Shown here: positions 19,172 to 41,901 of the stretch, in pieces
Position numbering within the stretch: position 1 is the stretch's first letter
Layout: each line of letters opens with the position of its first letter
Assembly: GCF_009650095.1 (NCBI RefSeq)
Contig: NZ_CP045915.1
Location: 1,860,001-1,924,000, forward strand
Direction of reading: 5' to 3'
DNA from: Gracilibacillus salitolerans
GTDB taxonomy: Bacteria > Bacillota > Bacilli > Bacillales > Amphibacillaceae
DNA length: 64,000 nt
Program-made: the position numbers and the translations under genes
The notes under the pieces: model-generated
Database searches by the model: none
Told to the model about the DNA's origin: nothing
What the model saw: the letters and a program-made list of their open reading frames with translations, nothing else

Positions 19172-19255
19172 ATGAATTTACATATGAAAATAACAGTCTT
19201 ATTAGCCGTGTTATCGCTAGTATTTATAATAGGTGGAATTATAAAACTCTTTTAA
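19172..19255 (+). CDS. 27-residue single-membrane-span peptide at the head of the Tad operon
   Basis: An ATG behind TTTGGAGGAAATCG opens a 27-codon frame, MNLHMKITVLLAVLSLVFII then GGIIKLF, which is one hydrophobic helix with short polar ends. It ends 13 bases before the tadZ start. No family is recognised. It sits where Tad operons often carry the SAF-domain gene cpaB/rcpC, which is missing here, but is far too short to replace it. The good ribosome site and conserved-looking helix support translation; a leader peptide or a relic of a longer gene are alternatives. Confidence 0.45.
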   Translation: MNLHMKITVLLAVLSLVFIIGGIIKLF

Positions 19256-19268
19256 AGGGGGAGGTACC

Positions 19269-20381
19269 ATGAAGAAATTACGTCTTGTTCTATTTGATCT
19301 TGATATAGAGTATATAGAATTGTTTGCTAATTATATTAGAACTTCGGAGTATGCGACTAGGTTTGATGTGAAGTTATTTTCTAGATATGAGAGCTTGCAA
19401 CAATATTTAGAAAGTGATGAACATACAGATATCCTTTTGCTATCCACTGAAGATCTACAACTAGAACCAGAAATGGAAGGTGTCGAAACTCTCCTCTATT
19501 TAGTAAATGATGCGGCTGAAGAACTATCTAAAAATGAGCTGTTTAAATATCAGCCACTAAGTCACGTTATTTCACAAGTATTATCCTTGCATTATGAACA
19601 TGATGGTAAGAAGCCTAGTAAAGGGAAGTCGCATAGTGGAAGTTCAAATGTAATTTCCGTCTTTTCAGCATCGGGCGGAACGGGTAAGACAACCACAGCA
19701 TTTCATTTAGCTAATCAAATGAAGGAAAATGGACTAGCAGTGTTCTATCTTAATTTGGAGTTAATCAATAGTAGTACATTGTTTTTTGATGTTGAGCATC
19801 TTTCATCATCTTCTCCGCTACTGTATTACTTGAAATCAAATGCTGAGGAATTGCAATCTAAAATGAAGGAATTGATGGTGGTAGATCAGAATACAGGTAT
19901 ACCTTTCTTCTATTTCATGCCAAGCGCAGAAGAAATGCTAGATTTAAGTGAGCAGGAAATAGAATTGCTATTAGATAATCTTATCAAATTAGAAGATTAT
20001 GATTATATCATTGTTGATCTAGAAAGTACGATAAATTCTATTTCGCTTACTACATTAAAGAAAAGCGATCAGGTTATTTGGCTGTTAGGAAATGATATGT
20101 ACAGTTTTCACAAAACTGGCTATCTATTAGAAGAGTTACATGGCTTTGCAAATGATGGTTCCTTTAGTGATCGAGTGCAATTAGTACTAAACAAATATAC
20201 GGGTTCTATGGATCCTAGCTTAGTAGAAATGGGAATAGAAATAGGTCACTACCTTCCTTATATACCAGAATGGAAGCAGTTAGTGAATAAAGAACAACTT
20301 AATAATCAGGTGTTTGAGGAGTATATTCAAAAACTCATTCATTCCTTAAGCAACAAGGTAGCAAGTGAGGTTGGTGGATGA
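19269..20381 (+). CDS. tadZ: TadZ/CpaE-type pilus localisation ATPase
   Basis: The 370-residue protein has an N-terminal receiver-like domain (about residues 1-115, starting KKLRLVLFDLD) without a clear phospho-acceptor pattern, then a MinD/ParA-like ATPase with the deviant Walker A VFSASGGTGKTTTAFHLA near residue 135 and the DYDYIIVDLES Walker B region. TadZ/CpaE proteins place Tad pili in the cell. The ATG follows AAAGGGGGAGG. The next gene starts at the TGA of this one, so translation is probably coupled. Confidence 0.88.
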   Translation: MKKLRLVLFDLDIEYIELFANYIRTSEYATRFDVKLFSRYESLQQYLESDEHTDILLLSTEDLQLEPEMEGVETLLYLVNDAAEELSKNELFKYQPLSHVISQVLSLHYEHDGKKPSKGKSHSGSSNVISVFSASGGTGKTTTAFHLANQMKENGLAVFYLNLELINSSTLFFDVEHLSSSSPLLYYLKSNAEELQSKMKELMVVDQNTGIPFFYFMPSAEEMLDLSEQEIELLLDNLIKLEDYDYIIVDLESTINSISLTTLKKSDQVIWLLGNDMYSFHKTGYLLEELHGFANDGSFSDRVQLVLNKYTGSMDPSLVEMGIEIGHYLPYIPEWKQLVNKEQLNNQVFEEYIQKLIHSLSNKVASEVGG

Positions 20382-20382
20382 G

Positions 20383-21609
20383 ATGGAACAGAATCATGAA
20401 TTAACAGAATCCATTATCGCTCATGTCCGTGATATGTTAAATGAAAGACAGACAATGGAAGACAAAGCGCTGCATGAATATATTGAACACTACGTATTTC
20501 AGCGAGCGGATGAGCATAGATTAACATCAAAGCAAATGAAATGGATGATTGATAGAACGTACAATGCATTTCGAGGCCTGGATGTACTCCAGCCATTAAT
20601 TGATGATCATTCCATAACAGAGATTATGATTAATAGTTTTGATGAAATTTTCATTGAACAAGATGGTCAAATTTTCCAAAGTGATGTGCAATTTGAAACC
20701 TCTGAAAAACTGGAAGATATTATTCAGATGATAGTTGGTAGGGTTAACCGTACAGTTAATGCTTCATCTCCGATTGTCGATGCTCGTTTGCAAGATGGTT
20801 CGCGGGTTAATGTGGTTTTACCACCAATTGCACTTAAAGGTCCGACCATGACAATTCGTAAATTCCCTGAAAAACCGTTAACCATTAAAGATTTGGTTAA
20901 GAAAGATTCAATTACTGAAGAAGTAGCAGACTTTTTAGAAAAGCTGGTCCGTGCCAAATACAATGTTTTTATCAGTGGAGGTACTGGTTCAGGTAAGACT
21001 ACATTTTTAAATGTTTTATCCAACTTTATTCCGAAAGAAGAAAGAATCATAACGATTGAGGACTCAGCTGAGTTGCAAATTAAAAGTGTACCGAACCTTG
21101 TCAGTATGGAAACACGGAATGCGAACACCGAAGGTAAAGGTGAAATCACGATGCGCGATTTAATCAAATCCTCGCTACGGATGCGACCTGACCGAGTTGT
21201 AGTAGGGGAGGTTCGTGGTGTGGAAGCATTAGATATGCTCCAGGCAATGAATACTGGTCACGATGGTTCACTGTCAACTGGTCACTCTAATTCGATAGAG
21301 GATATGTTGAGTAGATTGGAAACAATGGTGTTAAGCGGGGCTAATTTTCCGATACCAGTAATCCGTCAGCAAATTAGTTCAGCAGTTGATATTATGGTAC
21401 ACCTTTCTAGGTTAAGGGATCACTCTAGGAAAGTAGTAGCTATAAGTGAAGTATTAGGAGTAGAAGATGGAGAAGTCCAACTATCACAATTGTATGAATT
21501 TGTTGAAGAAGGTGAAGGACCAGCAGGTAAAGTAGTAGGATCTTTAAAACCAACCGGTGCGAAGTTACAAAACAGACTGAAATTAGAAATGTCAGGAATC
21601 AATCTGTGA
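20383..21609 (+). CDS. tadA: TadA/CpaF pilus assembly ATPase
   Basis: About 408 residues from the chosen ATG. It carries the CpaF N-terminal domain (PLIDDHSITEIMINSFDEIF), a Walker A box ISGGTGSGKTT, the Asp box IITIEDSAEL, the Walker B region RPDRVVVGEVRGVEALDML and the His box HDGSLSTGHSN. It powers extension and perhaps retraction of the Tad pilus from the inner face of the membrane. The start is uncertain: GTG 20365, GTG 20374 and ATG 20383 all lie near the GAGGTTGGTGG site; I prefer the ATG. Confidence 0.95.
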   Translation: MEQNHELTESIIAHVRDMLNERQTMEDKALHEYIEHYVFQRADEHRLTSKQMKWMIDRTYNAFRGLDVLQPLIDDHSITEIMINSFDEIFIEQDGQIFQSDVQFETSEKLEDIIQMIVGRVNRTVNASSPIVDARLQDGSRVNVVLPPIALKGPTMTIRKFPEKPLTIKDLVKKDSITEEVADFLEKLVRAKYNVFISGGTGSGKTTFLNVLSNFIPKEERIITIEDSAELQIKSVPNLVSMETRNANTEGKGEITMRDLIKSSLRMRPDRVVVGEVRGVEALDMLQAMNTGHDGSLSTGHSNSIEDMLSRLETMVLSGANFPIPVIRQQISSAVDIMVHLSRLRDHSRKVVAISEVLGVEDGEVQLSQLYEFVEEGEGPAGKVVGSLKPTGAKLQNRLKLEMSGINL

Positions 21610-21616
21610 AAAAGGG

Positions 21617-22579
21617 GTGATCCAAATAGAAATTTTTATTATTGCTACAGTGGCAGTTGCCATATTGATTGTTGTGTTTATTATTATGGATCGAAAGAAA
21701 AATAAAAATGATGAAGAATCTACGGAAAAACAGGTAAGATTTCAACAGGCAAAAGTTGCAAAGAAAGAAAAGAAACAAAGCAAACCAAAGAAAAATAAAA
21801 AAGTGGAAGAGCCTCCTTTCAATGAACATGGCATGACCAACTACAACACCTATAAATACAGTAGTCGTGAGTTTCTTTTATGGGTAATTGTTGGTTGTGG
21901 ACTCTTATTTGTAATAGGGTTTATTTTTTATCAAAATGTTATCTTAGCAGCGTTGTTCTGCCTTGTCGGACTCAATTTTCCAAAGATGAGAAAGAAGCAA
22001 ATCATCCAAAAGCGCAAAGCTGAGTTAAGTCGACAGTTCCAACAATCACTCTTTTCATTGTCGTCCTCTCTTGTAGCAGGGAGATCGATTGAGAATGCCT
22101 TTAGAGAAGTAACAAATGACTTATATTTACTCTATCCAGGTAAAAAAACGATGATCATTCAAGAATTTGAACATATTAATAAACGTCTCGAAAATAGAGA
22201 GCCAATTGAAAGAATGCTAGAGGAATTCAGTGCCAGAGCAGGTGTGGAGGATATTGCAAACTTCACAGATGTATTTGTTACCTGTAAACGAACAGGTGGC
22301 GATTTAGTAGAAGTTATCAGACGAACAGCAAATATGATTAGTGAAAAGTTTGAAATCCAACAGGAAATATCCGTAATGGTTGCCCAAAAACGATTTGAGT
22401 CGAATGCATTAACATTGATACCAATTGGCATTGTTGCTTTGTTAACTTATTTTTCCGGTGGTTACATGGAGCCACTATATCAGTGGTCTGAATTTGGTCC
22501 AATTGTTATGACATTTTGCTTGGCGTTACTTGCACTCGCATTTTGGGTTTGCCAACGAATAATGAGTATCGAGGTGTAA
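21617..22579 (+). CDS. tadB: TadB-type pilus platform protein
   Basis: The protein has about 320 residues with an N-terminal membrane helix, a Lys-rich cytoplasmic stretch (KKEKKQSKPKKNKKVEE), two more helices, a T2SSF domain (SRQFQQSLFSLSSSLVAGRS, TCKRTGGDLVEVIRRTA) and two C-terminal helices. TadB and TadC form the membrane platform. The start is odd: the only conventional start is GTG 21617, which is part of the ribosome-site-like AAAGGGGTGA itself; ATA 21626 or ATT 21632 would be better placed but are rare starts. Confidence 0.9.
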   Translation: MIQIEIFIIATVAVAILIVVFIIMDRKKNKNDEESTEKQVRFQQAKVAKKEKKQSKPKKNKKVEEPPFNEHGMTNYNTYKYSSREFLLWVIVGCGLLFVIGFIFYQNVILAALFCLVGLNFPKMRKKQIIQKRKAELSRQFQQSLFSLSSSLVAGRSIENAFREVTNDLYLLYPGKKTMIIQEFEHINKRLENREPIERMLEEFSARAGVEDIANFTDVFVTCKRTGGDLVEVIRRTANMISEKFEIQQEISVMVAQKRFESNALTLIPIGIVALLTYFSGGYMEPLYQWSEFGPIVMTFCLALLALAFWVCQRIMSIEV

Positions 22580-22582
22580 GAT

Positions 22583-23449
22583 ATGCTAATTAGCGCAATA
22601 TTTAGCATTTTTGCAGTCGGTTTGGTTGTTGTTTGTTTTATATTTGCCGGCTCAAAATATAAATTGTTTATCGAAGAAAATAAGGCAGACTTTCAATTTT
22701 TATTTATGGCTCCTGCATCTTTATGGTTAATAGATCGCGTAAAACTAATAGAGCGGTTATCAACACAAATTACTGCTATCCAGTTTAAAGTAGCTATTCT
22801 TTATTCTGCAGGTAAACAGGTACCACAATATACCAAAATGTTTCTGGCGCAGACGATTTCAGTAATTTTACTTTGTTTGGCTGGAGGTAGCTTATTTGCT
22901 GTACTAAATGGTGGTGACGTAAGGTTTGTCGTTTTTGCTATTATTCTAGCAATTATTATTCCGTTTGTATCAGTGAAAAAGCTAGATGAAAAAATGGAGA
23001 AGCGGAAACAGGACATTATTATTGAGTTACCAGAATTTGCTAGTAAGATCGCTTTGTTAGTAAATGCCGGCGAAACTGTTCAGCAAGCAATAGTTCGATG
23101 TACGATGATGAAAGCAGATCAAGACCATCCGTTATATCGAGAACTGAATGATGCCGTAGTCAAAATAAAGAACGGTGACTCCTTTAATGGTGTAATGGAG
23201 GATTTCAGTAAACGTTGCGGTGTTCAAGAAGTATCTGTTTTCACAACTACTATTCTATTGAATTATAAACGTGGTGGTAATCAACTTGCGTTATCCTTAC
23301 GGGAACTATCACGAGATTTATGGGAGAAACGTAAAGCAATTTCCCGGAAACGAGGAGAAGAGGCTTCTTCTAAACTCGTGTTTCCAATGGTGCTAATTTT
23401 TATCGCAGTACTCATTATTATAGCATATCCTGCGTTAAGAATTTTTTAG
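22583..23449 (+). CDS. tadC: TadC-type pilus platform protein
   Basis: The 288-residue protein has an N-terminal membrane helix, a central pair of helices (ISVILLCLAGGSLFAVL, FVVFAIILAIIIPFVSV), a T2SSF domain (IELPEFASKIALLVNAGETV, LLNYKRGGNQLALSLRELS) and a C-terminal helix (LVFPMVLIFIAVLIIIAYP). It starts three bases after tadB and is the partner platform protein. The helix order is typical of TadC. Confidence 0.9.
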   Translation: MLISAIFSIFAVGLVVVCFIFAGSKYKLFIEENKADFQFLFMAPASLWLIDRVKLIERLSTQITAIQFKVAILYSAGKQVPQYTKMFLAQTISVILLCLAGGSLFAVLNGGDVRFVVFAIILAIIIPFVSVKKLDEKMEKRKQDIIIELPEFASKIALLVNAGETVQQAIVRCTMMKADQDHPLYRELNDAVVKIKNGDSFNGVMEDFSKRCGVQEVSVFTTTILLNYKRGGNQLALSLRELSRDLWEKRKAISRKRGEEASSKLVFPMVLIFIAVLIIIAYPALRIF

Positions 23450-23489
23450 CATACATCTTAGCTAAACACATTAAAGGAGGTGAGAGAAC

Positions 23490-23660
23490 ATGCAGAAAAT
23501 TTTGACTAATCTATGGACTGAAGAAGATGGTCTAGGTACATTAGAGTTGTTATTAATCGTTGCCGTACTTGTTGCTGTTGCAATATTATTTGGTAATCAG
23601 ATTATTGAGTGGGTTGAGCAAATTATCGATGGAATAGATGTTACTCCACCATCTCCATAA
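23490..23660 (+). CDS. flp: Flp-like Tad pilin
   Basis: The 56-residue product starts MQKILTNLWTEEDG and continues LGTLELLLIVAVLVAVAILF, then an amphipathic tail ending VTPPSP. Cleavage after Gly14 would place Glu at position +5 followed by a hydrophobic helix, the class IV prepilin rule for Tad pilins. A strong AAAGGAGGTGA site precedes it. Size, helix and position after tadC make it the probable major pilus subunit. It is processed presumably by the TadV peptidase encoded at 28889. Confidence 0.85.
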   Translation: MQKILTNLWTEEDGLGTLELLLIVAVLVAVAILFGNQIIEWVEQIIDGIDVTPPSP

Positions 23661-23683
23661 ATTTTAAAAAGGGAGTATTGTAT

Positions 23684-24307
23684 ATGTTCCTTTCATTGCA
23701 AAATAAGTGGAAGATGCTCCGCAAAGATGAAAAAGGGATGTTTACTATTGAAGCATCCCTCGTCTTCCCAATTATATTTATAACGACAATTGCATTAATA
23801 TTGTTCAGTTTAGTTATCTATGAAAAAGTAGTTATTTATCAAAAGGCTCAGTTAATTGCTGAACGCACTTCGTTTACGTGGGATAACAGCTATAAGGATT
23901 TTGATACAGGTGAATTTCCTATCAATGCATATACGACGATGGATAATGGTGATGGACTGTATTGGCGTACTAACTTTATAGGAAAACAATTTATTGAAAA
24001 AGTATTTCCAAACCGTTTAAAGGGTGCTGGTGATGACAAAATCGAACGAGCGAGAACAGAAGGAAGTGCAATGTTCACAAGCGGTGATGTGCAAATTGAA
24101 GAGCCGAGTGCTTTAGGTTTTGACAGAAGAGTAAAAGTCACAGTTAATGGTAATCTTAAACTGCCCGATTTTGTCGACTTACTTGCAGATCAAGAATTCA
24201 CAGCAAAAACCAGCGCGTCTATAAAAGATCCTGTTGAATTAATACGTACAACCGATTTCATTGTTCATTATGGAAAAGAAGTTATGGGATCTATTACGAG
24301 CAATTAG
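23684..24307 (+). CDS. tadE: TadE-like pseudopilin (first)
   Basis: The 207-residue protein has a basic start, then KDEKG followed by MFTIEASLVFPIIFITTIAL, which gives Glu at +5 after a Gly cleavage site, and a soluble C-terminal domain of about 150 residues. TadE/TadF-like pseudopilins are minor pilus components processed by TadV. The ATG at 23684 follows AAAGGGAG; TTG 23678 is possible. A second protein of this type is encoded at 28274. Confidence 0.82.
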   Translation: MFLSLQNKWKMLRKDEKGMFTIEASLVFPIIFITTIALILFSLVIYEKVVIYQKAQLIAERTSFTWDNSYKDFDTGEFPINAYTTMDNGDGLYWRTNFIGKQFIEKVFPNRLKGAGDDKIERARTEGSAMFTSGDVQIEEPSALGFDRRVKVTVNGNLKLPDFVDLLADQEFTAKTSASIKDPVELIRTTDFIVHYGKEVMGSITSN

Positions 24308-24336
24308 AAACCTTTTTAGAGGTGAGGTTATAGGTT

Positions 24337-26715
24337 ATGAGAAGATTTCTATACAAACTAAAATATGATACTAAAGGTGCTGTGACAATCTTTTTTGTAA
24401 TGATCATTGCATTGGTCTTTGCCTTCAATGCGGTATTGATCGATTATGCTCGTATTATGTCCGCTGAACAACAATCAGAGTATGCGCTGCAAAGTGCTGT
24501 TCGCTCTGCTATGGCTAGTTATGATAATGATCTGCGAGATTACGGACTTTTCGGAGTTGATGGTAATGCTATTGAATCAGAATATCAAGACTTGTTAGAA
24601 ACAAATATTGAAGCCACTTCCAACGATGAAGCATTTAGTTTTACTGATCCTAATGTTGAAAGTGCAAGTATAGACTTTTCAAGAGAACTAGCTGATAAAG
24701 ATATTTTGGAACATCAAATTTTAGAAGAAATGAAATATAAAGCTCCTGTTGAGATCGCAAAGGAGCTAATTGAGAAATTTTCGTTTTTAACTACAGCAGT
24801 AAAAGAAACATCAGCGTTTGTAGATGCAGCAGAAAAAATTCAAGATGATTTTGAAGAAAGAGAAGAGCTTTTGGATGAAACTGAAGAAACATATGACAAA
24901 GTGTTAAGTGATTTAGAAACATTTAAATTAAATTTAACAAACTCTGAATATAGTGTTTATCCAAATGTTAATTATTATAGAGATATTGTTCATCACTATA
25001 ATACATATAGTCAAACTGATAGTAATATTAATGAATTACAAAATGAAATAAACAATAAAAATTCAAATAATGAAACAATTGATGAGCAACTAAGTGATCT
25101 TCGAGATGAGTTAGAAGATTTAGAAGAAGATTTGGAAAAAGTTAAATCTGGAGAAGAATTAGATCCACCTAAAACAGCTGAAGAACTAGAAGAAGAAATT
25201 GAAGATAAAGAAGATGAAATAGAGGAAAAGGAACAACAAATTAGCGACAATGAACAGACTGTATCTGATAACGAAGAGGAAATTGAGGAATTAGAACAAA
25301 ATGCAGAAATATTCAAAGAACAAGCAGAACAAAAAATATCAGATATGGAAGAGTTAGCAAATTCAATCGTTAATTCTGTAAAAGATATCCAGGAAAAAAT
25401 GAATACAGCAAGTGATTTGAATGATAGCATTCAAGAAATAGTTGATACAGCAGGTAACAATGCGGAAGAAAATTATGGACAAGCAGAGGAAAATTTAATT
25501 GATGGACCTCCAGAAGGTGTTAACTCTGTAGATGATGTGTCTCAAGAAATTTCTGAAAATAGCCGCAAATTACAAGATTATCCTTATGATAGTGAATTTT
25601 TTGAACAAATCATTAGTGCAACGGATGATGCTGTATCGAAGATAGAAACATTACCAGAATTATTTGAAAATATTAATATTGACGATACCACAACTTCTAA
25701 CCTAGAAAATATTCGAACAGAGGCTCTAGAAATGGTACAGAATGGTGAAGAAGGGGTGAATTCTGGATCAGATAAATTGAGTGAAGATCGTAAAGAATTT
25801 GAAAATGAGTTAGACCAACCAAAAGAAGATTTAGAAGAAGAAGCTGAAAATCTAAATGATGAAATGGAAGAATTGCTAAATGATGCAGAAAACATAACTG
25901 ATGATGTTGGTGTTTATCAGGAACTTCAAGGATTAGTCGACAAATATAATGCATATGTTTCTGAAAGTGATGGAGATATTCCTGAACTTGACTTGGGTGA
26001 AGATGCAAAAGGCAGTGCTAGTAGCGCTATGGATATTGTAGACTCAATATTCAGTGGAATAGGAAGTATTTTAGCAGATGCCAGAGATAAGTTATACATT
26101 AATGAATATGTTTTATTATACTTTGAAAGTGCTGAGCCAACAGGTATAACAAATTACAGTGATTTCTTATTTGAAAATCGAGAAGTAGAGTATATACTAT
26201 ACGGGCAACATACAGCAGGAGCTAATTATTCAATGGCATTGGGACAATTATTTGCAATTCGATTTGCAATTCGATTTGTTGATGCATTTACACAAGAATG
26301 GGTTCGTTCAGCAGGACATCCTCTTCTAGTTTTTATAGCAGCATTATCATATGCTTTATCTTTTTCAACAAAAGACGTTAATGATATGGCAAGTGGAGCG
26401 TCAACCCCTTTACTAAATAAAAAATTAACACCTAAGGACAAGTTGCCTATGGTATACCATGATTATTTACGTTTGTTTATGTTTCTGAATCCGCTAAGCG
26501 ATGCACGTTTTAAAAGAATAATGGCAGTCATTGATAAGAAAACAGGTGTGGATTTAACAGAAAGGCAAACCTATGTAAAAGGTAGTTTGGAAACTTCAGA
26601 AAGATTGATATTTGTACCACAAGTTGCAGACATGCTAAATTTAGTCGGTGTACTGGACGGGCAGGCAGAAGACGGGAAATTTGTTTTTGGAAAAGAAGCA
26701 CATTTCTCTTATTAA
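24337..26715 (+). CDS. tadG: TadG-like protein with long Glu-rich coiled coil
   Basis: The 792-residue protein has an N-terminal KGAVTIFFVMIIALVFAF helix like TadG and related Tad proteins, but without Glu at +5, so prepilin cleavage is doubtful. A TadG-type pattern (VLIDYARIMSAEQQSEYALQ) follows. Residues about 230-480 form a strongly acidic coiled coil with repeated EE/ED heptads, and a globular C-terminal region of about 250 residues ends HFSY. The acidic stretch gives strong open frames on the opposite strand that are shadows. A surface or cell-wall spanning role in the pilus is inferred. Confidence 0.75.
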   Translation: MRRFLYKLKYDTKGAVTIFFVMIIALVFAFNAVLIDYARIMSAEQQSEYALQSAVRSAMASYDNDLRDYGLFGVDGNAIESEYQDLLETNIEATSNDEAFSFTDPNVESASIDFSRELADKDILEHQILEEMKYKAPVEIAKELIEKFSFLTTAVKETSAFVDAAEKIQDDFEEREELLDETEETYDKVLSDLETFKLNLTNSEYSVYPNVNYYRDIVHHYNTYSQTDSNINELQNEINNKNSNNETIDEQLSDLRDELEDLEEDLEKVKSGEELDPPKTAEELEEEIEDKEDEIEEKEQQISDNEQTVSDNEEEIEELEQNAEIFKEQAEQKISDMEELANSIVNSVKDIQEKMNTASDLNDSIQEIVDTAGNNAEENYGQAEENLIDGPPEGVNSVDDVSQEISENSRKLQDYPYDSEFFEQIISATDDAVSKIETLPELFENINIDDTTTSNLENIRTEALEMVQNGEEGVNSGSDKLSEDRKEFENELDQPKEDLEEEAENLNDEMEELLNDAENITDDVGVYQELQGLVDKYNAYVSESDGDIPELDLGEDAKGSASSAMDIVDSIFSGIGSILADARDKLYINEYVLLYFESAEPTGITNYSDFLFENREVEYILYGQHTAGANYSMALGQLFAIRFAIRFVDAFTQEWVRSAGHPLLVFIAALSYALSFSTKDVNDMASGASTPLLNKKLTPKDKLPMVYHDYLRLFMFLNPLSDARFKRIMAVIDKKTGVDLTERQTYVKGSLETSERLIFVPQVADMLNLVGVLDGQAEDGKFVFGKEAHFSY

Positions 26716-26807
26716 GAAATTTTAAAGACATTTAAGAATAAGTATTTTATGTAGCAATAAATATGAAGGTGTACTTCAAATAAGAAATTATTAAAAGGAG
26801 AATGACT

Positions 26808-27437
26808 ATGAGAATGTTACGCTTAAGTTTGTTAACTTTATTTATGGTAATGGCGTTGATAGCATGTAGTTCTGATGATGACGAGGCACAGGAACCAAAT
26901 GAAGATGAAACACCGGACACAGAAGAAACACAAGATAATGTTGAAGATGATACTGAATCACCAGCACAAGAGGAGAATGAAGATGAAAATGAGACTTCAG
27001 ATAATGAAAATAATAGCGAAGAACAATTAAGTTTAGGAGATTCTACAGAAGTCCAAACTCCATCGGGAGATTATGAGCTTACTGTTAATTCATTTGAATT
27101 TCTTGATGATTTTGAAGGAGAGCAGCCTGATAGAGACACATTTGTTTTAGTTCAATTTGAGGTTAAAAATATTAGTGATTCGCCTATTGTTGCAGAAGAA
27201 ATTTATGAAGCTATACTATTTGATGCTGATGACATTAGTTCAGATTACATCATATCAAACTCTTCAGTGGATGTTTTTGGAGAAGAAGAGATTCAGCCTG
27301 GTGAAACAAAAGAGGGAGAGTTTTTGTTTTCACACAATGAATCTGACTCATATATTTTACACTTTAACTATGGTTTCTTAGAGTCGATAGCGACAAATGT
27401 AACTTATGAGTTGTCAGCTGGAGATGCCAGTAACTAA
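26808..27437 (+). CDS. Lipoprotein with DUF4352-like domain (A)
   Basis: The 209-residue protein has a signal peptide with lipobox LIAC (cleavage before Cys near residue 20), an acidic Asp/Glu/Asn linker of about 50 residues and a C-terminal beta-sandwich domain (GDYELTVNSFEFLDDFEGE, VLVQFEVKNISDSPIV, EEIQPGETKEGEFLF) resembling DUF4352. ATG 26808 lies seven bases after AAGGAG and is preferred to ATG 26802. It is clearly paralogous to the lipoprotein encoded at 31254. It is probably attached to the outer face of the membrane as an accessory factor of the pilus or kinase system; its ligand is unknown. Confidence 0.8.
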   Translation: MRMLRLSLLTLFMVMALIACSSDDDEAQEPNEDETPDTEETQDNVEDDTESPAQEENEDENETSDNENNSEEQLSLGDSTEVQTPSGDYELTVNSFEFLDDFEGEQPDRDTFVLVQFEVKNISDSPIVAEEIYEAILFDADDISSDYIISNSSVDVFGEEEIQPGETKEGEFLFSHNESDSYILHFNYGFLESIATNVTYELSAGDASN

Positions 27438-27447
27438 TGTGCTTTGA

Positions 27448-27467
27448 GAAGGGGGCCTTCCCCCTTC
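27448..27467 (+). repeat. GC-rich hairpin after lipoprotein A
   Basis: GAAGGGGG and CCCCCTTC form a perfect 8-bp stem with a CCTT loop, directly after the stop. The downstream sequence is not a T run, so partial termination or mRNA end protection is more likely than full termination. Confidence 0.6.
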
Positions 27468-28232: not shown

Positions 28233-28273
28233 TCGGTATTATCATACAGTGTGGTACTTAAGGAGGTGAAGAC

Positions 28274-33464: not shown

Positions 33465-33477
33465 AAGGAGGAGAAAC

Positions 33478-35418
33478 ATGCTGGAGAGTGGATCGGTCAT
33501 TGATGGCAGGTATGAGATATTGAAAGAGATTGGCAGAGGCGGGATGAGTATTGTTTATCTCGCCATGGATAATCGATTGAAAAAATCATTAGTTGTCAAG
33601 GATATTCGAAAACGCAAGAGCAATAACCATGAAATCCTGTTGAACAGCCTTGTGGTTGAAGCGAATATGTTGAAGAAATTAGAACACCCTGCACTACCTA
33701 GAATCTATGACATTATTGAAACAAAGAATGGTATCTATGTGGTAATGGACTATATTGAAGGAGAATCACTTAAGGAAAAGCTGGATCGGGAACACCGTGT
33801 TGAACCAGATGAAGTAATTGAATGGGCAAAGCAGATCGCAAATGTGCTTGCGTATCTCCATAGTAGAGAACCACACCCCATCATTTATCGTGATATGAAA
33901 CCAGACAATCTGATGCTGACTCCGGATGGCAAAATTAAGTTGATCGATTTCGGAATTGCGAGAGAATATAAAACGGAAAACTCATCAGATACTACGAATC
34001 TAGGAACGAAAGCTTACGCAGCCCCAGAACAGATTGCTGGTAAACAAACCGATAAGCGTACAGATATCTATAGCTTAGGTGTCACACTTTATCATCTTGT
34101 CACTGGCAAAACATTGAATGAACCACCTTTTGAAATCAGACCAATCAGAACATGGGATCCATCTTTACCTGAAGGACTAGAATATATTATTCAGCGTTGT
34201 ACCCAAATAGAACCTGAAGATCGCTATCAGCAAGTAGAAGATTTATATGAGGACCTGTTTCAAATTAATAAACTTACGCAAGGATATAAGAAACAATTAA
34301 TCAAAAAGCTATCATACTTCCTCATCCCAGCAGTGCTTTTTCTCACTTTTACTACTACAGCAGTTTTTGGTTATACCGGTATACAAAAAGAACAGTTTCA
34401 CGAATATTTTGGGTTATTAAGTGATGCACAACAGGAATTGATTGATGGTAATGAGTCGGAATCGATCAGTCTATTAGAAAAGGCTATAGCAGTAGATAAT
34501 TCAAGAGCAGAAGCTTATAACCGATTACTTGATTTGTATATAAATAGAGACGATGCCAAAACAGGTCTTTCCGTTGTCGAAAATCAAATTAATAATGGGT
34601 ATGGGGGACTTGACCAAAACAATGAAGTGTTATTCAAAGTGGGGATGACTTATTTTGATATAGAGAAGGATTATCAGACAGCACTCGATTATTTCCAGAG
34701 GGTGGATGAAGAGGAGCTTGAAGATGCCGAATATTATAAAACACTAGCGACGCAAATGAGTAATTTGAACATTGACTATCAACAATTCAATGAAGAGTTA
34801 GAAGAGTTTGAAGACTACAATAATAATCTACCTAACAATAGTAGAAAAGTAGAAAATTATAATGCATTGGCTAACATCTATTTATCTTATAAAGGTCAAA
34901 TAGATGAAGCAAACACTAAAGCAATCAACATTTTATTAAAAGCTCAAGAAGTTTTCGAATTGCTTGGTGACCAAGACGTGACATTGCAATTCGAACAAAG
35001 CTTTCCACGAAAATTAGCACAAGCCTATTTCAGTCGTGGAGTCTTATCTGAGGATGCTGCTGATGCAAGAGAAGATTTTTATCAATCGATTGAATACTAC
35101 AATGAATTGCTAGATCAGGATGTTTCAGACCAAGAAAATGTGATGATTTCGATTGGAAATGCTTATCAAGAAATGGGCGAATATGAGAATGCTATCAGTC
35201 AGTATCAGCAAGTAATGGCGCAATATCCGCAATCAGCAGATCCTTATGTAAAACTTATTAATTTACTGATTGATATCGAACAGGAAAAAGAAGCATCAGA
35301 CCGGGATTACGACAACACTGTTGACTTATATGAAGAGCTAATGGAACTTGATGAAGCAAACAATAATTCGGAAGTAGAGAAGTTAGACCGGAGATTACAA
35401 AATAATTCGATCTTATAG
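33478..35418 (+). CDS. Transmembrane Ser/Thr kinase with extracytoplasmic TPR region
   Basis: The 646-residue protein has a PknB-type kinase domain (about 8-265) with GRGGMS (19-24), Lys41, Glu61, the catalytic loop IIYRDMKPDN with Tyr in place of the His of HRD, DFG at 157-159 and APE at 182-184; all catalytic residues are present. A membrane helix (about 279-299) follows. The C-terminal 340 residues are helical with TPR-like repeats (AEAYNRLLDLYINRD, GNAYQEMGEYENAISQYQQV) and should lie outside. PASTA repeats of the usual PrkC sensors are absent. TPR proteins (TadD) are standard Tad parts, so this fusion could replace it. Ribosome site AAAGGAGGAG. Confidence 0.9.
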   Translation: MLESGSVIDGRYEILKEIGRGGMSIVYLAMDNRLKKSLVVKDIRKRKSNNHEILLNSLVVEANMLKKLEHPALPRIYDIIETKNGIYVVMDYIEGESLKEKLDREHRVEPDEVIEWAKQIANVLAYLHSREPHPIIYRDMKPDNLMLTPDGKIKLIDFGIAREYKTENSSDTTNLGTKAYAAPEQIAGKQTDKRTDIYSLGVTLYHLVTGKTLNEPPFEIRPIRTWDPSLPEGLEYIIQRCTQIEPEDRYQQVEDLYEDLFQINKLTQGYKKQLIKKLSYFLIPAVLFLTFTTTAVFGYTGIQKEQFHEYFGLLSDAQQELIDGNESESISLLEKAIAVDNSRAEAYNRLLDLYINRDDAKTGLSVVENQINNGYGGLDQNNEVLFKVGMTYFDIEKDYQTALDYFQRVDEEELEDAEYYKTLATQMSNLNIDYQQFNEELEEFEDYNNNLPNNSRKVENYNALANIYLSYKGQIDEANTKAINILLKAQEVFELLGDQDVTLQFEQSFPRKLAQAYFSRGVLSEDAADAREDFYQSIEYYNELLDQDVSDQENVMISIGNAYQEMGEYENAISQYQQVMAQYPQSADPYVKLINLLIDIEQEKEASDRDYDNTVDLYEELMELDEANNNSEVEKLDRRLQNNSIL

Positions 35419-35428
35419 GAGGGGTGAT

Positions 35429-36001
35429 ATGGAAGTAACATACAGAATTATGCTATATGGAGGTATTGTTGGTGCACTTATCACCCTTTCGATTGCAATA
35501 TGGCTGTTCATTAAACTGGACATTCGCCATGTGTTGGAAGACTTAACAGGAATTAGGTTAGGTAAAAATAGGAGAAAGCAAAATAATGCCTCATTTGAGA
35601 TGTGGAGTGAAAGAAACTATACATCAAGTCAACTCGAGTTGAAAAAATTAGAACATACATCTGAAAGTGTTCGGGAAAGTCGGAAATTTCATACATCACA
35701 GGAATTTTTACAGCACAAAACCAACCAGCAAATTAAAAACACTTCTAGAGACGAGCAAATTTCCGTTTCACCGCACATGCAATACGCTGAACCTAATCAA
35801 CTATCAAAAGAAGAAAATTCCTATGATCCGACAGAATTGTTAGACGAAGTATCAGAGAATAATCAGACAGAGTTACTAGAAGAAACAACCTTTTTGGAAA
35901 ATGAAACAGAGTTACTTGGGGAAGGTGAAGCTTCATTTGAAATGGAAGAGGAAGTTATAGTGACACACAATGCGTCGAATAAAAAGGAGGGATTGAAGTG
36001 A
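35429..36001 (+). CDS. Small membrane protein with repeated T-E-L-L motifs
   Basis: The 190-residue protein has one N-terminal membrane helix (about 10-29), a basic stretch (GKNRRK), and an otherwise polar, probably disordered tail. In the tail TELL occurs at 135-138, 147-150 and 160-163, with EETTF at 151-155. Such Thr-rich acidic clusters are of the kind recognised by FHA domains when phosphorylated (Thr with Leu at +3). I recognise no family. It overlaps the giant surface-protein gene by four bases and follows the kinase by ten. A phospho-acceptor for the local kinase/FHA pair is inference. Confidence 0.65.
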   Translation: MEVTYRIMLYGGIVGALITLSIAIWLFIKLDIRHVLEDLTGIRLGKNRRKQNNASFEMWSERNYTSSQLELKKLEHTSESVRESRKFHTSQEFLQHKTNQQIKNTSRDEQISVSPHMQYAEPNQLSKEENSYDPTELLDEVSENNQTELLEETTFLENETELLGEGEASFEMEEEVIVTHNASNKKEGLK

Positions 36002-39000
36002 CAGATAACAAAAAGAAGAGTAAAAGATGGCTTCCACTGTATGCAATCATATCTTTAGTTATTTTCTCAGCTATTATTTTTACATCAAATGCTATTGCTT
36101 CAGATGAGTTAGATATGAAAGTTCAGTATGCAGGGGATGAATGGGATTTAAGTGATGATCCGACACAAGATCCTGACTGGTACACAAGTAAGGATCAACT
36201 CACATTTAAGGTAGACGTAAGTGAATATTATCAAAACCTTGAGGAAGGTGATGACTCGGCTATACCTTTTAAAGTAGAAGCTTCTCAAGGGAATCGTAAA
36301 GCAACTGTAGATATAACAAAGGTAACTAATGAAGAAGGAAATTTTAATGGTGTCTATGAAGTAATGGTAACACCTCGTAATAGCTCAGATGGTCCGATTG
36401 ATATCAGCTTAAATATAGAAGAAGACAATAATTGGGAGATACCTTCTGAGCAAAGTCCGATTTCCTTTACTATTGACAAAGATTCTGAACCTCCGGAAAT
36501 CAATTATTCAGGTATCGAGAACCAAGAGGTATATTACAGCGATCAGGAATTACGTATCGATATCGATGAGGAGAATATCGAGGATAAGAGTGTGACTGTA
36601 ACGCATAATGGAAATCAGGTAAATCCTGACGTAGAATGGGATGGTAACAAAGGTACAGTTTTATTCTCGGAAAGTGGTAATTATCAAGTTGAGATTACAG
36701 TAGTAGATAAAGTAGGGCAAGAGACGAAGGAAGAACTAACTTTCTATTTGAATACAGAGGAACCTACATTAAAAGCCGAAACTGAGTTAGGTAATATAGT
36801 AGAAAGTGGCGCAGTCCTAACTGATAATAATTTTAGTTTTACAATAGAAAATGGAATAGCTGTTGATTCAGCTCAATTAACGATTCGCGAGGATAATAGT
36901 GTAATAGATAAAGTGAATATGGAAACAAGTGGAAATAAAGCCAGTGTGAACTATTCATTTGATGAAGAGGGAACATACGAAGTAAAGGCAGAGTTGGAAG
37001 ATGCTCACAATGGTGAGAAACATGAGCTTGAAGCTTTTACCATTACAGTTGATCAGTCAAAACCTAATATAACGATCACTGATAATAACGAAAAGCCAGT
37101 TACAGATAAGGAAATCTATCAAAATGCATTTGACCTGAAGCTTCGGGTAGAGGATGACAATTTAAATCTAGATGAAAGTTCTATTACGGTTACTTACAAC
37201 TCAGCTGAAAGCGAAGAGCAAAGAGAAGTGGCACTATCTTATAGAGATGGTGTAGCAACAGCAGAGTATGATGTTGATGATGCAGGTGAATATACGATTG
37301 GTGGAACACTCGTCGATCATGCAGGTAATAAAAGTACGATTGATGTAAGTTTTGCTTTATACATGGAAAGTGATCTAATCGATATTACTGATAAAACGAA
37401 TAACGAAAATTTAAAAGAGTATTATCAAGATGATGTGTTAGTGAACGTTAAATACTGGGATTTTAATCCAATTGAAAAGTCTTTTTCCGTTATGAAACTT
37501 AATTTAATTACAGGCGAAGAAGAACCATATTTAGATAGTTCTGATCTTTCCAGTGTCGTATTTATGAGTTGGATTGAACACTTCTTTCAAGAAGGTGAAT
37601 ACTATTTATCGATAGAAACACAGAATATAATGGGAAATACAGAAACAGAGAAGCGCAAATTTATTGTCGATAAAACAGATCCAGAGGTTACGATTGATTC
37701 ACCGATATCCGATAAGGAGCATATTACTTCCTCATCTCTTGATGAACAGGATGGTAAGCTATTTAACCTAAGAGTATTTGATGATTATTTAGAGGATTAT
37801 CAAGCACAACTTGAAGTGGTCGATACAGATGGTAAGAAACAAACATGGGTAGATGATGATGCAGGTAATTGGGTGAATCAAGATGGAACCTATCACTTTA
37901 ATCTAAATGAAGAGCTAATAGGTGAAGAAGGAGATTATACCCTTTCGTTACAGGCTGAAGATGAAGCTGGACGAACTGGGGAGCAAGCCCTCCATTTTAC
38001 TATTGATGATACTGCACCTGTTATTGAACTTTCTGAAATAGACCGATTTAATGATAAAAAACTCAAAAACACGGTTACAGTAAGAGAATATAATTATGAG
38101 CAGAATAATGTAACTATTAAGATTGAGAAGCAAAATGAATCTGGTGAATTTGAAACATATGATTCAGATGATTTTGATGAATGGGAAAATAGTGGTTTGA
38201 CATCAGAAGCAAAATTTCCATTTGTTGAAGATGGGACTTATCGTATCACAGTAAATGCTGTTGATGCTGCTGGCAATAAAGCAGAAAGACAACGTTCAGT
38301 TTTCACTATTGATACAGAGAATCCTAATTCAACGATATCAGGTGTCGAGCATCAAAAACACTATACTGAGGGACAGACTGTACAAGTTGATATTCAGGAT
38401 AATCATATTGATGAAGCAGCTACCACACTTGCGGTTAATGAATGGAATCACAACAGTGAACAATTCGAAAAATCTGATATTGACTCCGCATTAGCGTTTG
38501 ATCGCAAACAGGCAGAGTGGCGTCACGAATTTGAAGATGAAGGAACATATGAAATTATCGTGAAAGCGAAAGATAAGGCTGGAAGAGATGCAGAAGAAGC
38601 ACACGTAATTTTTACAATTGATCAGACAGATCCAGTTGTATCGATCGATAATATCAAGAATAAAACTTATTATGACAATGATCTGACAGCAACATTTACT
38701 GTAGATGAATTAAATTATCGTGATAATAACGTTACCTTTGAAGTAACAAAAGGTGATGAAAACTATACAGAACAAGTAGAAGGAGATGAAGGAGAAGATT
38801 GGAGAAATGCAGCTAAACAATCTGAACTGACATATACCTTTGATGAAGATGGAGACTACGAAGTGAAATTACGTGCCGAAGATAAAGCAGGTAACGCCTC
38901 AGGTTCAGATCCAATCAGCAGAACTTTCACGATAGATAAGACAAACCCTTCCATTTCAGTAGAAGGTGTTGAAAAAGGTAGATATTATGACAATAACAGA

Positions 39001-41901
39001 GATGTAGAAGTTCAGATCAATGATACGAATTTTGCTGATTACGAATTGACGGTTACGAAAGACGAGGAAGAATATGAAATAGAAGACATAGAGGAAAAAG
39101 ATACATCCATCTCCTTTGAACATGAATTTAAGGAAGATGGCGATTATGTATTGGAGCTTTCCGCAGTAGACCGTGCTGGTAATCAGTCGACTAAGGTAGT
39201 GAGCTTTACAGTAGATAAAACAGATCCAGTAATTTTAATTACTGATGAAATAGCAGACTTTATTAGCAGTGATGATATTGAAGAAAACTTCATCCCAATT
39301 AAATTAACTGAAAAGAATATTAAATCAAAAGAAGTGACCATTTCTCGTGTGGATAATGATGGTAAAAAGAAAACTTATTCTGAAGAGGACACTGGTGAAT
39401 GGATAGACAATGGGAAAGTTCATCGTTATGACTTGAACGAAAGCTTTTTCGAAAAAGATGGTGATTATGAGATTGTTGTTGTCGCAGAAGACAAGGCAGG
39501 TAATACAGATAAGGCGAGCTTATCATTCACTGTCGACAATATTGCACCGATAATTGATCTGTCTGATCTAAATGAATTTAATGATGCAGCACAGACAGAA
39601 ACGATTAAAGTAACAGAGCATAATTACAATACTAACAAAGTGGATATTAAGGTTTATCGCGAGAATGCCCAAGATGAGTTCGTTCCATATGATGATAATT
39701 TTGCAAGTTGGAAAAACAAGCAAGAAGTTACGTCATTAGATTTTCCTTTCACAAAGGATGGAAAATATCGAGTGGAAGTACGTGCAACAGATGCAGCAGG
39801 AAACACTGCAAAAGCGAAAACAGACGTTTTTACGATTGATACGGTGAATCCTGATTTAAGTATTACAGGTGTAACACAGGATACACATTATCGTAACAGT
39901 AAAGAAGTGAGAGCTTCTGTCAAGGATGCAAATGTTAATAAATCAGGTACAGTTTTAGGTGTGTATCGACTCAATTCTTCAACAGGTAAAATGGTTCCAT
40001 TTAATGCAAATGAACAGCCAACTTTTACAAGACGTTCAATGGATTGGCGCTATCAATTCTCGACGGCAAATGAAGGAACGTATCGTGTTCAATTAAATGC
40101 AACTGATTTAGCTGGTAATAAAGGAGAAGAACAATCTGTAGACTTTACAATCGATAACACTGCACCAGTTTTATCGATTGACAATATCACAGACGGTACC
40201 TATTACGATGCTGGTAGGTCAGTAGAGATGAGTATTCTTGAAACAAACCATCGTCAAAATAAAGTACAGTTCGAAGTGACACGGAATGGTCAGGATATGA
40301 CAAATACAGTACAAGGTTCTAGAGGTCCTTCATGGAGAACTGCGAGTAAGTTGTCTAGCTTAAGCTATCATTTCTCGCAAGATGGAGCTTATAGTATTGA
40401 ATTAAATGCGACAGACGAAGCTGGCAATAGAGCTAAGACTGCTAAGAAGGAATTTGTCGTTGATACGGTACAACCAGATATTGAAATTTCTGGTGTGGAG
40501 GATGGAGAATATTATAATGAAGATGTTCCTGTCTCTGTAAGAATTGCAGATGTAAACTTAGATAATAATACCATTCATGTTACACGCAATGGAGAGAATT
40601 ATCCAGTCGGTAATTTCTCGATCACGAATAATCCTTACGAAAATTCATTTGCTAATTTAAGTCATACCTTCAGTCAGGAAGGTGATTATGAAATAGTAGT
40701 AGACGCCAGTGATAAAGCGAATAATCAACAGTCACAATCTATCGCTTTTACCATTGATAAAACACCACCTGTTATCACACCGGTAATGGGTGAAGGAGAT
40801 CAAGAGCTTGAAGATGGTTCATTTATTAATCGTGTATTTCAACCGCAGTTCCTATTGGATAATGAGGAAGATACGATTGTATCTGTGAGATTAAATGATG
40901 GTTCCAATATTGCTGGTAATATCCCATTAGCTTCGACAGAAATGGAATATAATTATGAGGTGTTAGCACGAGATAAAGCTGGAAATGAAACTACATTATC
41001 GATAAGCTTTACACTAGATACAACAAGACCGGAGTTAAGTATTACTGGCATCATTGGAAACTTTACAAATGAAAATGTCAGTCCGCATGTAGAGTATTCT
41101 GATCGCAACTTAGATGAAGAACGAACATCCGTGACGTTGAACGGAGAAACTTTTAGAAATGGGATGGAATTAACTGGTGAACAGGATTATATTCTTGAGG
41201 CTGTTATTACAGACTTAGCGGATAATGTAACAGAACAGTCAATTGTGTTTACGATTGATAAGACTGGACCAAAAATTATCTTTAAAGAACCATTGTCAGG
41301 GCAATACTTTAACAGTGTGGTCATTCCTGATATCATTATTGAGGCGATGACAGGCTATGATATTATTGCATTGACCCTTAATGGAGAACCATATGAGTTA
41401 GGCGATCCAATTGAAACAGAAGGTAAGCATGTACTCTATTTTGAAGTTATGGACCAAGCAGGAAATATTGAGCAGCTTACGGTAGAATTTATTATAGATC
41501 TAACTGTACCAGTAGTCATTTTTGATGGTATTGAAGAAAATGAGGAAGTTGTTGACGCTGTTGACTTATCTATTCAGTTAGATAACCAAGAAGACACGAT
41601 TAAATCCGTATCCGTTAATGGTGAGGATTATGAAGGTACAGTTATAGAAGAAGATGGAGTCGAAGTAATTCATTATCATTTCTCAGAAATCGATGAGTAT
41701 AATGTAGAAGTTACTGCATATGATGAAGCAGGTAACGAAGTTACTGAAAACTTACCATTTGTAATAGCGGAAAGAAGTTTACTATCCCAGTTCTATGAAA
41801 ATAAACCATTACTCTCTGGTAGTATTGCAGGACTTCTAGCGCTGATAATTGGTGCTATTACAGTATTGGCACGTAGAAGAGCAGCAGCAACAGCGGAATA
41901 G
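35998..41901 (+). CDS. Giant Ig-like repeat surface protein, membrane anchored
   Basis: The 1967-residue protein starts at GTG 35998 behind AAAAAGGAGG, overlapping the preceding stop. It has a signal/anchor helix (about 13-35), roughly 18 Ig-like repeats of about 95-105 residues joined by linkers like FTIDKTDP, most with D.AGN near their end, and a C-terminal helix followed by RRRAAATAE. No LPxTG motif is present, so the C-terminal helix should anchor it in the membrane. Residues about 562-1076 and 1077-1590 are two copies of a five-domain block. The N-terminal about 150 residues form a distinct domain. Such proteins usually are adhesins or stalks. It is the last gene of the operon, before a terminator. 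Confidence 0.85.
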   Translation: MTDNKKKSKRWLPLYAIISLVIFSAIIFTSNAIASDELDMKVQYAGDEWDLSDDPTQDPDWYTSKDQLTFKVDVSEYYQNLEEGDDSAIPFKVEASQGNRKATVDITKVTNEEGNFNGVYEVMVTPRNSSDGPIDISLNIEEDNNWEIPSEQSPISFTIDKDSEPPEINYSGIENQEVYYSDQELRIDIDEENIEDKSVTVTHNGNQVNPDVEWDGNKGTVLFSESGNYQVEITVVDKVGQETKEELTFYLNTEEPTLKAETELGNIVESGAVLTDNNFSFTIENGIAVDSAQLTIREDNSVIDKVNMETSGNKASVNYSFDEEGTYEVKAELEDAHNGEKHELEAFTITVDQSKPNITITDNNEKPVTDKEIYQNAFDLKLRVEDDNLNLDESSITVTYNSAESEEQREVALSYRDGVATAEYDVDDAGEYTIGGTLVDHAGNKSTIDVSFALYMESDLIDITDKTNNENLKEYYQDDVLVNVKYWDFNPIEKSFSVMKLNLITGEEEPYLDSSDLSSVVFMSWIEHFFQEGEYYLSIETQNIMGNTETEKRKFIVDKTDPEVTIDSPISDKEHITSSSLDEQDGKLFNLRVFDDYLEDYQAQLEVVDTDGKKQTWVDDDAGNWVNQDGTYHFNLNEELIGEEGDYTLSLQAEDEAGRTGEQALHFTIDDTAPVIELSEIDRFNDKKLKNTVTVREYNYEQNNVTIKIEKQNESGEFETYDSDDFDEWENSGLTSEAKFPFVEDGTYRITVNAVDAAGNKAERQRSVFTIDTENPNSTISGVEHQKHYTEGQTVQVDIQDNHIDEAATTLAVNEWNHNSEQFEKSDIDSALAFDRKQAEWRHEFEDEGTYEIIVKAKDKAGRDAEEAHVIFTIDQTDPVVSIDNIKNKTYYDNDLTATFTVDELNYRDNNVTFEVTKGDENYTEQVEGDEGEDWRNAAKQSELTYTFDEDGDYEVKLRAEDKAGNASGSDPISRTFTIDKTNPSISVEGVEKGRYYDNNRDVEVQINDTNFADYELTVTKDEEEYEIEDIEEKDTSISFEHEFKEDGDYVLELSAVDRAGNQSTKVVSFTVDKTDPVILITDEIADFISSDDIEENFIPIKLTEKNIKSKEVTISRVDNDGKKKTYSEEDTGEWIDNGKVHRYDLNESFFEKDGDYEIVVVAEDKAGNTDKASLSFTVDNIAPIIDLSDLNEFNDAAQTETIKVTEHNYNTNKVDIKVYRENAQDEFVPYDDNFASWKNKQEVTSLDFPFTKDGKYRVEVRATDAAGNTAKAKTDVFTIDTVNPDLSITGVTQDTHYRNSKEVRASVKDANVNKSGTVLGVYRLNSSTGKMVPFNANEQPTFTRRSMDWRYQFSTANEGTYRVQLNATDLAGNKGEEQSVDFTIDNTAPVLSIDNITDGTYYDAGRSVEMSILETNHRQNKVQFEVTRNGQDMTNTVQGSRGPSWRTASKLSSLSYHFSQDGAYSIELNATDEAGNRAKTAKKEFVVDTVQPDIEISGVEDGEYYNEDVPVSVRIADVNLDNNTIHVTRNGENYPVGNFSITNNPYENSFANLSHTFSQEGDYEIVVDASDKANNQQSQSIAFTIDKTPPVITPVMGEGDQELEDGSFINRVFQPQFLLDNEEDTIVSVRLNDGSNIAGNIPLASTEMEYNYEVLARDKAGNETTLSISFTLDTTRPELSITGIIGNFTNENVSPHVEYSDRNLDEERTSVTLNGETFRNGMELTGEQDYILEAVITDLADNVTEQSIVFTIDKTGPKIIFKEPLSGQYFNSVVIPDIIIEAMTGYDIIALTLNGEPYELGDPIETEGKHVLYFEVMDQAGNIEQLTVEFIIDLTVPVVIFDGIEENEEVVDAVDLSIQLDNQEDTIKSVSVNGEDYEGTVIEEDGVEVIHYHFSEIDEYNVEVTAYDEAGNEVTENLPFVIAERSLLSQFYENKPLLSGSIAGLLALIIGAITVLARRRAAATAE

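Follow-up and report, generated by a model that had tools for sequence, protein, structure and literature searches.

A Tad pilus locus of Gracilibacillus salitolerans adjoins a candidate portable phospho-threonine module resembling type VII secretion cassettes

We analysed a stretch of 64,000 nucleotides from the genome of Gracilibacillus salitolerans (GCF_009650095.1, a single contig, NZ_CP045915.1, of 5,088,110 bases; positions 1,860,001 to 1,924,000 of the forward strand), hereafter the window, in which a Gram-positive Tad pilus locus (19269-29404), known here from its genes alone, is followed on the same strand by a cassette (29685-41901) that encodes a kinase, phosphatases and an FHA protein in one cluster with catalytic and FHA motifs intact. 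Because the cassette matches, gene for gene, the component set TsxD, F, I, J and K of Garrett et al. (2024; PMC11217815), we used their letters J, F, D, K and I. The reading that we favour, and to which we give about an even chance, is that a Gram-positive Tad locus has been joined to a portable phospho-threonine module that would license the pilus through the mechanism proposed below; that the circuit controls this pilus is what we infer.

J (29685-31229) consists of a DUF6382 domain (91.6 bits), two transmembrane helices, a TTLL motif at residue 395 and an FHA domain (48.8 bits). It is followed by two PP2C phosphatases placed by Pfam and a phosphatase tree, F1 (31882-32682) in a Tad-native clade and F2 (32706-33464) in a clade of the T7SSe type of the type VII secretion system (T7SS), both of which keep the motifs DGMGG, GDSR and DGF, and by the Ser/Thr kinase D (33478-35418; Pfam and kinase trees), which has intact VVK, YRDMKPDN and DFG motifs, a transmembrane helix at residues 278-296 and a TPR tail. 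K (35429-36001) has one N-terminal transmembrane helix and a tail with TELL motifs at residues 135, 147 and 160, and I (35998-41901; Pfam) is a 1967-amino-acid Ig-repeat protein with a hydrophobic stretch at its N-terminus and a transmembrane stretch that ends in a short basic tail at its C-terminus; F2, D, K and I were additionally assigned by their matches to an Agathobacter plasmid described below. These assignments bear out the FHA protein, two PP2C phosphatases, transmembrane kinase with a TPR-like tail and "Thr-motif membrane protein" (K) of a preliminary description of this DNA, whose "giant adhesin" stands as a 1967-residue Ig-repeat protein and, as an adhesin, as a guess.

To place J, we searched one genome per species using an alignment of 18 of 31 J homologues as a query (a 26-row version was too diverse) and retrieved 76 loci from the best 80 of 138 relatives, a set in which distant J proteins are under-sampled and 44 loci are from Paenibacillus. 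Genes were called as longest open reading frames and labelled by their best match to profiles built mainly from the window proteins; neighbourhood counts cover about 10 kb or the distance to the contig end, many of the genomes being drafts. The closest other J is from Gracilibacillus orientalis (77% identity). At least three tad genes were found within 10 kb of J in 74 of the 76 loci, the two exceptions being locus L023, which begins at a contig end, and locus L026 from Aquibacillus, which has tadZ only. From 299 Bacillota genomes drawn evenly, 26 of which contained DUF6382 (23 over the cut-off), we obtained 20 DUF6382 regions in 19 genomes, and 17 of these regions had at least three tad genes. 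J is therefore a Tad-locus protein widely across the sampled Bacillota, and the association of the FHA protein with Tad loci holds up, with phosphatase and kinase following in an operon-like manner in many Bacillaceae.

The other components are less frequent (F in 34, D in 33, K in 9 and I in 8 of the 76 loci), and in all 43 loci where J had no D nearby at least three tad genes were present. Three layouts recurred: 39 loci, all from Paenibacillus, that lack both F and D within 10 kb; 18 loci in which J-F-D is followed by a YukC/EssB homologue, either directly (15 loci) or after one intervening gene (3 loci); and the J-F-F-D-K-I layout of the window, in some cases with additional genes, in three Gracilibacillus, two Amphibacillus, Natronobacillus, Aquibacillus and Litchfieldia. 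With the window excluded, median gaps were -1 bp for J-F (33 pairs), 14.5 bp for F-D (26), 11 bp for D-K (8) and -4 bp for K-I (8). Among the 65 relatives with tadV directly 5' of J, the median gap between them was 12 bp, and it was at most 60 bp in 55.

The closest match of F2-D-K-I was a T7SS cassette. Our plasmid search with a T7SSe-like J returned one record only. On a plasmid of Agathobacter rectalis, genes for an Ig protein, a PP2C phosphatase, a kinase, a 139-amino-acid membrane protein and an FHA protein stand in a row, and the annotation adds essC, an EsaB/YukD gene and WXG100 genes; matched by description only, this plasmid fits the T7SSe of PMC11217815 as far as that account was available to us. 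D matched the plasmid kinase at 42% over 482 amino acids (E-value 1e-111), and F2 matched the phosphatase at 36% (E-value 2e-61), F1 at 29% (E-value 3e-39); I matched at 24% (E-value 5e-25, partly through Ig repeats), K weakly at 24% (E-value 1e-4), and J in its FHA part only at 26% (E-value 4e-6). In the parts of PMC11217815 available to us, T7SSe and T7SSj share with the window a DUF6382-FHA protein, a PPM phosphatase, a transmembrane kinase (with a TPR tail in T7SSj), a protein with one transmembrane helix and an unstructured cytoplasmic stretch, and a giant Ig protein with a signal peptide and a C-terminal transmembrane helix, so that components D, F, I, J and K are all present in the window, TseH not being distinguishable from TseK. 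The window differs in that its set sits on a Tad locus and has two phosphatases, and neither EssC nor WXG100 was found in its genome; its J has two transmembrane helices, as in TsfJ of T7SSf and unlike T7SSe and T7SSj. The same parts of PMC11217815 link the five components to T7SS and do not place them in Tad loci; they report that T7SSg and T7SSh adjoin Tad genes and leave that connection open.

In the window genome, WXG100 (TsxA) gave no match at an E-value threshold of 0.001, and no protein exceeded the cut-off of 778.4 bits for the FtsK-type ATPase EssC (TsxC), the best matches (132.5 and 124.9 bits) being read as FtsK/SpoIIIE. EssC was over the cut-off in 7 of the 30 cassette genomes searched; among the nine genomes with the I-bearing layout it was over the cut-off in four and below it in five (the window genome, three Gracilibacillus and Natronobacillus).

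A tree of 49 phosphatases grouped F1 of the I-type loci with other Tad PP2Cs and F2 with T7SSe-type PP2Cs (support 100/99; long branches L159_273, L157_275, L163_287 and L009_F2), and kinase trees grouped D of these loci with T7SSe-type kinases (98/90 with 44 rows, 97/87 with 41 rows after leaving out the long-branched L159_309, L163_331 and L163_574). A single clade of Bacillaceae Tad kinases was rejected (p-AU 4.7e-5). The trees hold only three T7SSe-type rows: the Agathobacter plasmid carries essC itself, L157 adjoins GGDEF/EAL genes in a genome whose EssC lies on a different contig, and L158 comes from a genome (G252) without EssC. Because F1 falls with Tad PP2Cs while F2 and D fall with the T7SSe type, the locus looks composite, J-F1 being the putative Tad-native part and F2-D-K-I the part that appears to have been exchanged.

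We then counted T-x-phi-phi motifs as candidate phosphorylation sites. The tails of 52 K proteins contained 174 such motifs, compared with 19.4 in shuffles, with at least one in 46 proteins, at least two in 37 and at least three in 28; one of the 52 (the second K-labelled open reading frame of L157) has no transmembrane helix and is probably mislabelled. Restricting the count to the 10 K proteins of the first set gave 45 motifs, compared with 1.6, and K of L038 carries a long ETELL array. In J, a motif occurred within the 70 residues before the FHA domain at 33 of the 34 loci that have D, the window among them (5.2 expected), and at 41 of 43 loci without D (3.4 expected), and the FHA residues G441, S457, H460, D474 and N479 were invariant in 76 aligned J proteins. 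FHA domains prefer a hydrophobic residue three places after the phospho-threonine, and the motifs in K and J are likely phospho-threonine docking sites. TadA was also considered as a phosphosite array (63 motifs, compared with 13.2) and rejected, since 57 of the 62 motifs recounted in 66 TadA proteins are one recurring ETMVL. Like J, the FHA regulators GarA and OdhI carry a TT motif ahead of an FHA domain that J matches in fold, and the FHA domain of GarA binds its own phosphorylated stretch; J differs from both in being a membrane protein with a kinase-fold domain.

That domain, DUF6382, was predicted to adopt a protein-kinase fold over its whole length, and among 53 DUF6382 domains the motif [HY]RDxKxxN occurred in none and DFG in one, so DUF6382 is predicted to be a kinase-fold domain without catalytic motifs. 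EssB/YukC of T7SSb is similarly kinase-folded, non-catalytic and membrane-bound, but no reliable sequence match joins the two: a comparison with the YukC profile was collinear, but with a probability of 1.4% and an E-value of 0.036. EssB/YukC was not among the matches listed in the DUF6382 structure searches, so that a relation between the two would have the shared kinase fold as its sole basis. The YukC profile (PF10140) had no match in the window genome. In the 18 loci where YukC/EssB homologues lie downstream of the Tad kinase (L020, L012, L015 and L030 among them), one homologue tested against Pfam scored 110.6 bits. YukC was over the cut-off in 22 of 31 genomes, 15 of which had no EssC over the cut-off, so that T7SS-type pseudokinases adjoin Tad kinases where no T7SS ATPase was found. 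A 464-amino-acid protein after D in the clostridial locus L127 had been taken for YukC by its size and was rejected as TrkH. The analysis thus offers a likely fold for DUF6382 and shows that a Tad kinase can have a YukC/EssB homologue as its neighbour in genomes where EssC does not reach the cut-off; the available part of a pseudokinase review (PMC12599244) treats EssB and has no match for Tad. The kinase of the Cohnella lupini Tad locus (L010 12740-14350) includes a von Willebrand A domain (29.4 bits against a cut-off of 27), which is reminiscent of T7SSc, where kinase and von Willebrand A components are separate.

Under the favoured reading, sensing of the envelope state or of contact would fall to the TPR tail of D, taken to lie outside the membrane, and to the Ig protein I, and D would phosphorylate the TELL threonines in the cytoplasmic tail of K and the TTLL site of J. 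The FHA domain of J would then bind phosphorylated K, or its own phosphorylated stretch in the manner of GarA, and J, together with its membrane anchor and kinase-fold domain, would thereby join or leave the Tad platform (TadZ, TadA, TadB/C), a movement that would license pilus building or positioning, while F1 and F2 would reset the phosphorylation state. In such a scheme the Tad-native part would consist of J-F1, and F2-D-K-I would have been exchanged as the input part. More tentatively, and with clear reservations, we propose that J-F-D-K-I is one exchangeable unit of phospho-threonine control and surface sensing that has been coupled repeatedly to two unrelated envelope machines, Tad pili and T7SS, the kinase-fold/FHA protein acting as an adaptor to the machine and the K tail, with its repeated T-x-phi-phi sites, as a phosphorylation counter. 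Such a shared unit, if real, would bear on how Gram-positive Tad pili are switched and on why T7SS can adjoin Tad genes. The parts of the module can each be tested: the kinase, both phosphatases, J as FHA receptor, K as multi-site docking tail and I as surface protein.

We further looked for the cassette in one clostridial family, where a long D (E-value threshold of 1e-85) was found in 51 of 250 genomes at 53 places, all of which were examined with their flanks (L193-L243, L157 and L158). The arrangement (J)-F-D-K-I recurred in these regions, with parts missing in some. Within the 51 regions L193-L243, again over about 10 kb or to the contig end, 6 had at least three tad genes, 5 had a confirmed EssC (a sixth EssC label, in L233, was a 328-amino-acid fragment and was not confirmed) and 39 had neither. 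By coordinates, 9 of the 53 places lay at most 40 kb from TadA (5 at most 20 kb) and 11 at most 40 kb from EssC, none being near both. TadA was present in all 51 cassette genomes, a figure without a family background rate for comparison, and EssC in 28 of them at an E-value threshold of 1e-60 (26 over the cut-off), leaving 23 with TadA and no EssC. In a quick context tree of 65 rows, from which 3 of the 53 places were dropped for want of a kinase of 400 amino acids with catalytic motifs, Tad and EssC neighbours interleave, with about 8 changes at fewest, a number that is approximate as 20 of the 62 forks are open. Genome G252 (L123, L124 and L158) has three DUF6382 genes and no EssC over the cut-off, and the D of its J-F-D-K-I cassette lies about 26 kb from TadA.

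Several observations weigh against the favoured reading. A strong hairpin with a T-rich tail, a candidate intrinsic terminator, parts tadV from J in the window (29422-29464; + strand; 18 pairs, -20.5 kcal/mol, z -6.5 compared with shuffles), where transcripts may end, so the statement in the preliminary description that no strong terminator follows tadV is not borne out. The window gap is 280 bp; tadV and J lie -50 to 61 bp apart in 6 of the nine K-bearing loci, a count that takes in the window, and only L007 (683 bp) and L005 (2563 bp), both with lipoprotein genes in between, have wider ones than the window. Locus L026 from Aquibacillus carries tadZ-J-F-F-D-K-I in a draft genome that lacks TadA (best match 36 bits) and has EssC; upstream of this cassette (L026 2445-6322), an ABC exporter whose start is C39-like was noted by eye together with an HlyD-like protein. 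EssC is likewise present in four of the nine genomes that share the Ig-type layout, and as many as 39 of the 51 clostridial regions have neither Tad nor EssC within reach of the count. No Tad protein carries a clear T-x-phi-phi array, K of L038 is rich in TELL although its D falls outside the Ig-type clade, and J retains its motif in loci without D nearby, for which reason J may be a substrate of other kinases. The Aquibacillus genome without TadA and the 39 clostridial regions without either machine show that the cassette is not bound to Tad. The gene-neighbourhood comparison that the preliminary description had called for thus came out on both sides: J keeps to Tad, and some of what it had named as evidence to the contrary was found, in the clostridial family, in Aquibacillus without TadA and in the hairpin at 29422-29464.

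The strongest alternative, which we regard as possible if on the doubtful side, is that F2-D-K-I, with J and F1, makes up a surface system in its own right (an Ig surface protein controlled by phosphorylation would be one example), which merely neighbours Tad and does not have the pilus as its target. The hairpin after tadV, the Aquibacillus cassette without TadA and the clostridial counts (6 regions near Tad, 5 near a confirmed EssC and 39 near neither) speak for it, whereas the tie of J to Tad in 43 of 43 loci without D, the near-zero gaps in most relatives and, for as long as no family background rate qualifies it, the presence of TadA in 51 of 51 clostridial cassette genomes (EssC in 28) speak against it. 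A second alternative, in which the module serves mainly general kinase signalling, in growth or under envelope stress, J and K acting as scaffolds that belong to no specific machine, would account for the retention of the J motif where D is not nearby and other kinases may act; the repeated co-location with Tad or EssC in distant families makes it improbable. That the cassette is an orphan remnant of a lost T7SSe-like system is more improbable still, even with D, F2, K and I matching T7SSe components and no EssC or WXG100 found in the window genome, given the preserved catalytic motifs, FHA residues and K motifs and an arrangement kept in the window, three Gracilibacillus and Natronobacillus, all without EssC over the cut-off.

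The preliminary description had likened the trio of kinase, phosphatase and FHA protein to that of type VI secretion systems (T6SS). The analogy holds in that the T6SS threonine phosphorylation pathway also has a kinase, a PP2C-type phosphatase and an FHA protein encoded with a surface machine (a pathway mentioned in the parts of PMC11217815 and PMC8460266 available to us), albeit another machine in another envelope; we set aside T6SS-like as a label, F2-D-K-I being closer to T7SSe/T7SSj. To our knowledge, neither the motif array of K, nor the Ig protein, nor the kinase-fold part of J is a feature of the T6SS pathway.

The open-access full texts searched contained DUF6382 in PMC11217815 only and no report of the module in Gram-positive Tad loci. 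FHA domains are tied to Tad machinery elsewhere. The Kil Tad-like apparatus of Myxococcus (PMC8460266) resembles the window in this respect and in a suspected signalling cascade, and differs in being Gram-negative, with no match for "kinase" in the main text as available to us. The class III CpaF proteins (PMC12019362, in part) are also Gram-negative, with an N-terminal FHA domain fused to the ATPase and not to a DUF6382 membrane protein. A Bifidobacterium paper (PMC11418510) lists an FHA gene under "pili" in the portion available to us.

All genes named in the preliminary description lie on the + strand where it had placed them, as supported by open reading frames and by Pfam or motifs. Upstream of tadZ there is an open reading frame of 27 codons for a small hydrophobic peptide (19172-19255, + strand), called from sequence and not by homology. 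The Tad genes begin with tadZ (19269-20381), encoding a ParA/MinD-type ATPase (AAA_31, E-value 1.2e-13; labelled tadZ in 55 of 76 relatives) whose N-terminal part we take to be a receiver-like domain, followed by the motor ATPase gene tadA/cpaF (20365-21609; T2SSE, 197.6 bits), the sole further match to the TadA profile in the genome scoring 34 bits, and by the platform genes tadB (21617-22579; T2SSF, 34.5 bits) and tadC (22583-23449; T2SSF, 37.8 bits). A 56-amino-acid Flp-like pilin (23490-23660) was called by its length, by the prepilin motif G-xxxx-E ahead of a hydrophobic stretch and by relatives (flp label in 43 of 76 loci). The first TadE-like minor pilin (23678-24307; TadE 16.8 bits, cut-off 22.9) and the TadG-like coiled-coil protein (24337-26715; Tad domain 20.9 bits, cut-off 22.3) stay below their Pfam cut-offs and were assigned through position and relatives, with homologues in 69 and 73 of 76 loci respectively. 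The second TadE-like minor pilin (28274-28870; 24.0 bits, cut-off 22.9) and the prepilin peptidase TadV (28880-29404; Peptidase_A24, 60.3 bits) complete the set, so that TadA, TadB and TadC, a Flp pilin with its peptidase, and TadZ with TadE/G-type minor pilins are all present; a secretin is not expected for Tad in a cell with one membrane.

Three DUF4352-type lipoprotein genes within the locus were missing from the preliminary description, the first at 26802-27437 (DUF4352, 36.0 bits), the second at 27594-28232 (21.1 bits, under the cut-off) and the third, DUF4352/DUF5067-like and under both cut-offs, between J and F1 (31254-31811), all on the + strand. Such genes are scattered and have multiplied in relatives, where the label occurs in 28 of 76 loci, with several copies in L005, L006, L045 and L069. 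Scans of the window with Rfam at gathering thresholds and with ARAGORN gave no match and no tRNA respectively.

The cassette is followed by secA (42423-44933), and the Tad locus and cassette together are flanked by an hpf-like gene (14158-14718), which by eye follows fliD/fliS-like genes, and by secA with a prfB-like gene (span 14158-46054). As hpf, secA and prfB adjoin one another in Bacillus subtilis, this position would be an insertion site. Elsewhere in the window, two open reading frames at 8745-10194 resemble an IS3-type transposase pair by eye, and a signal peptidase-like gene with a camelysin/TasA-like protein on the minus strand (803-3825, also by eye) may form a second surface-fibre locus.

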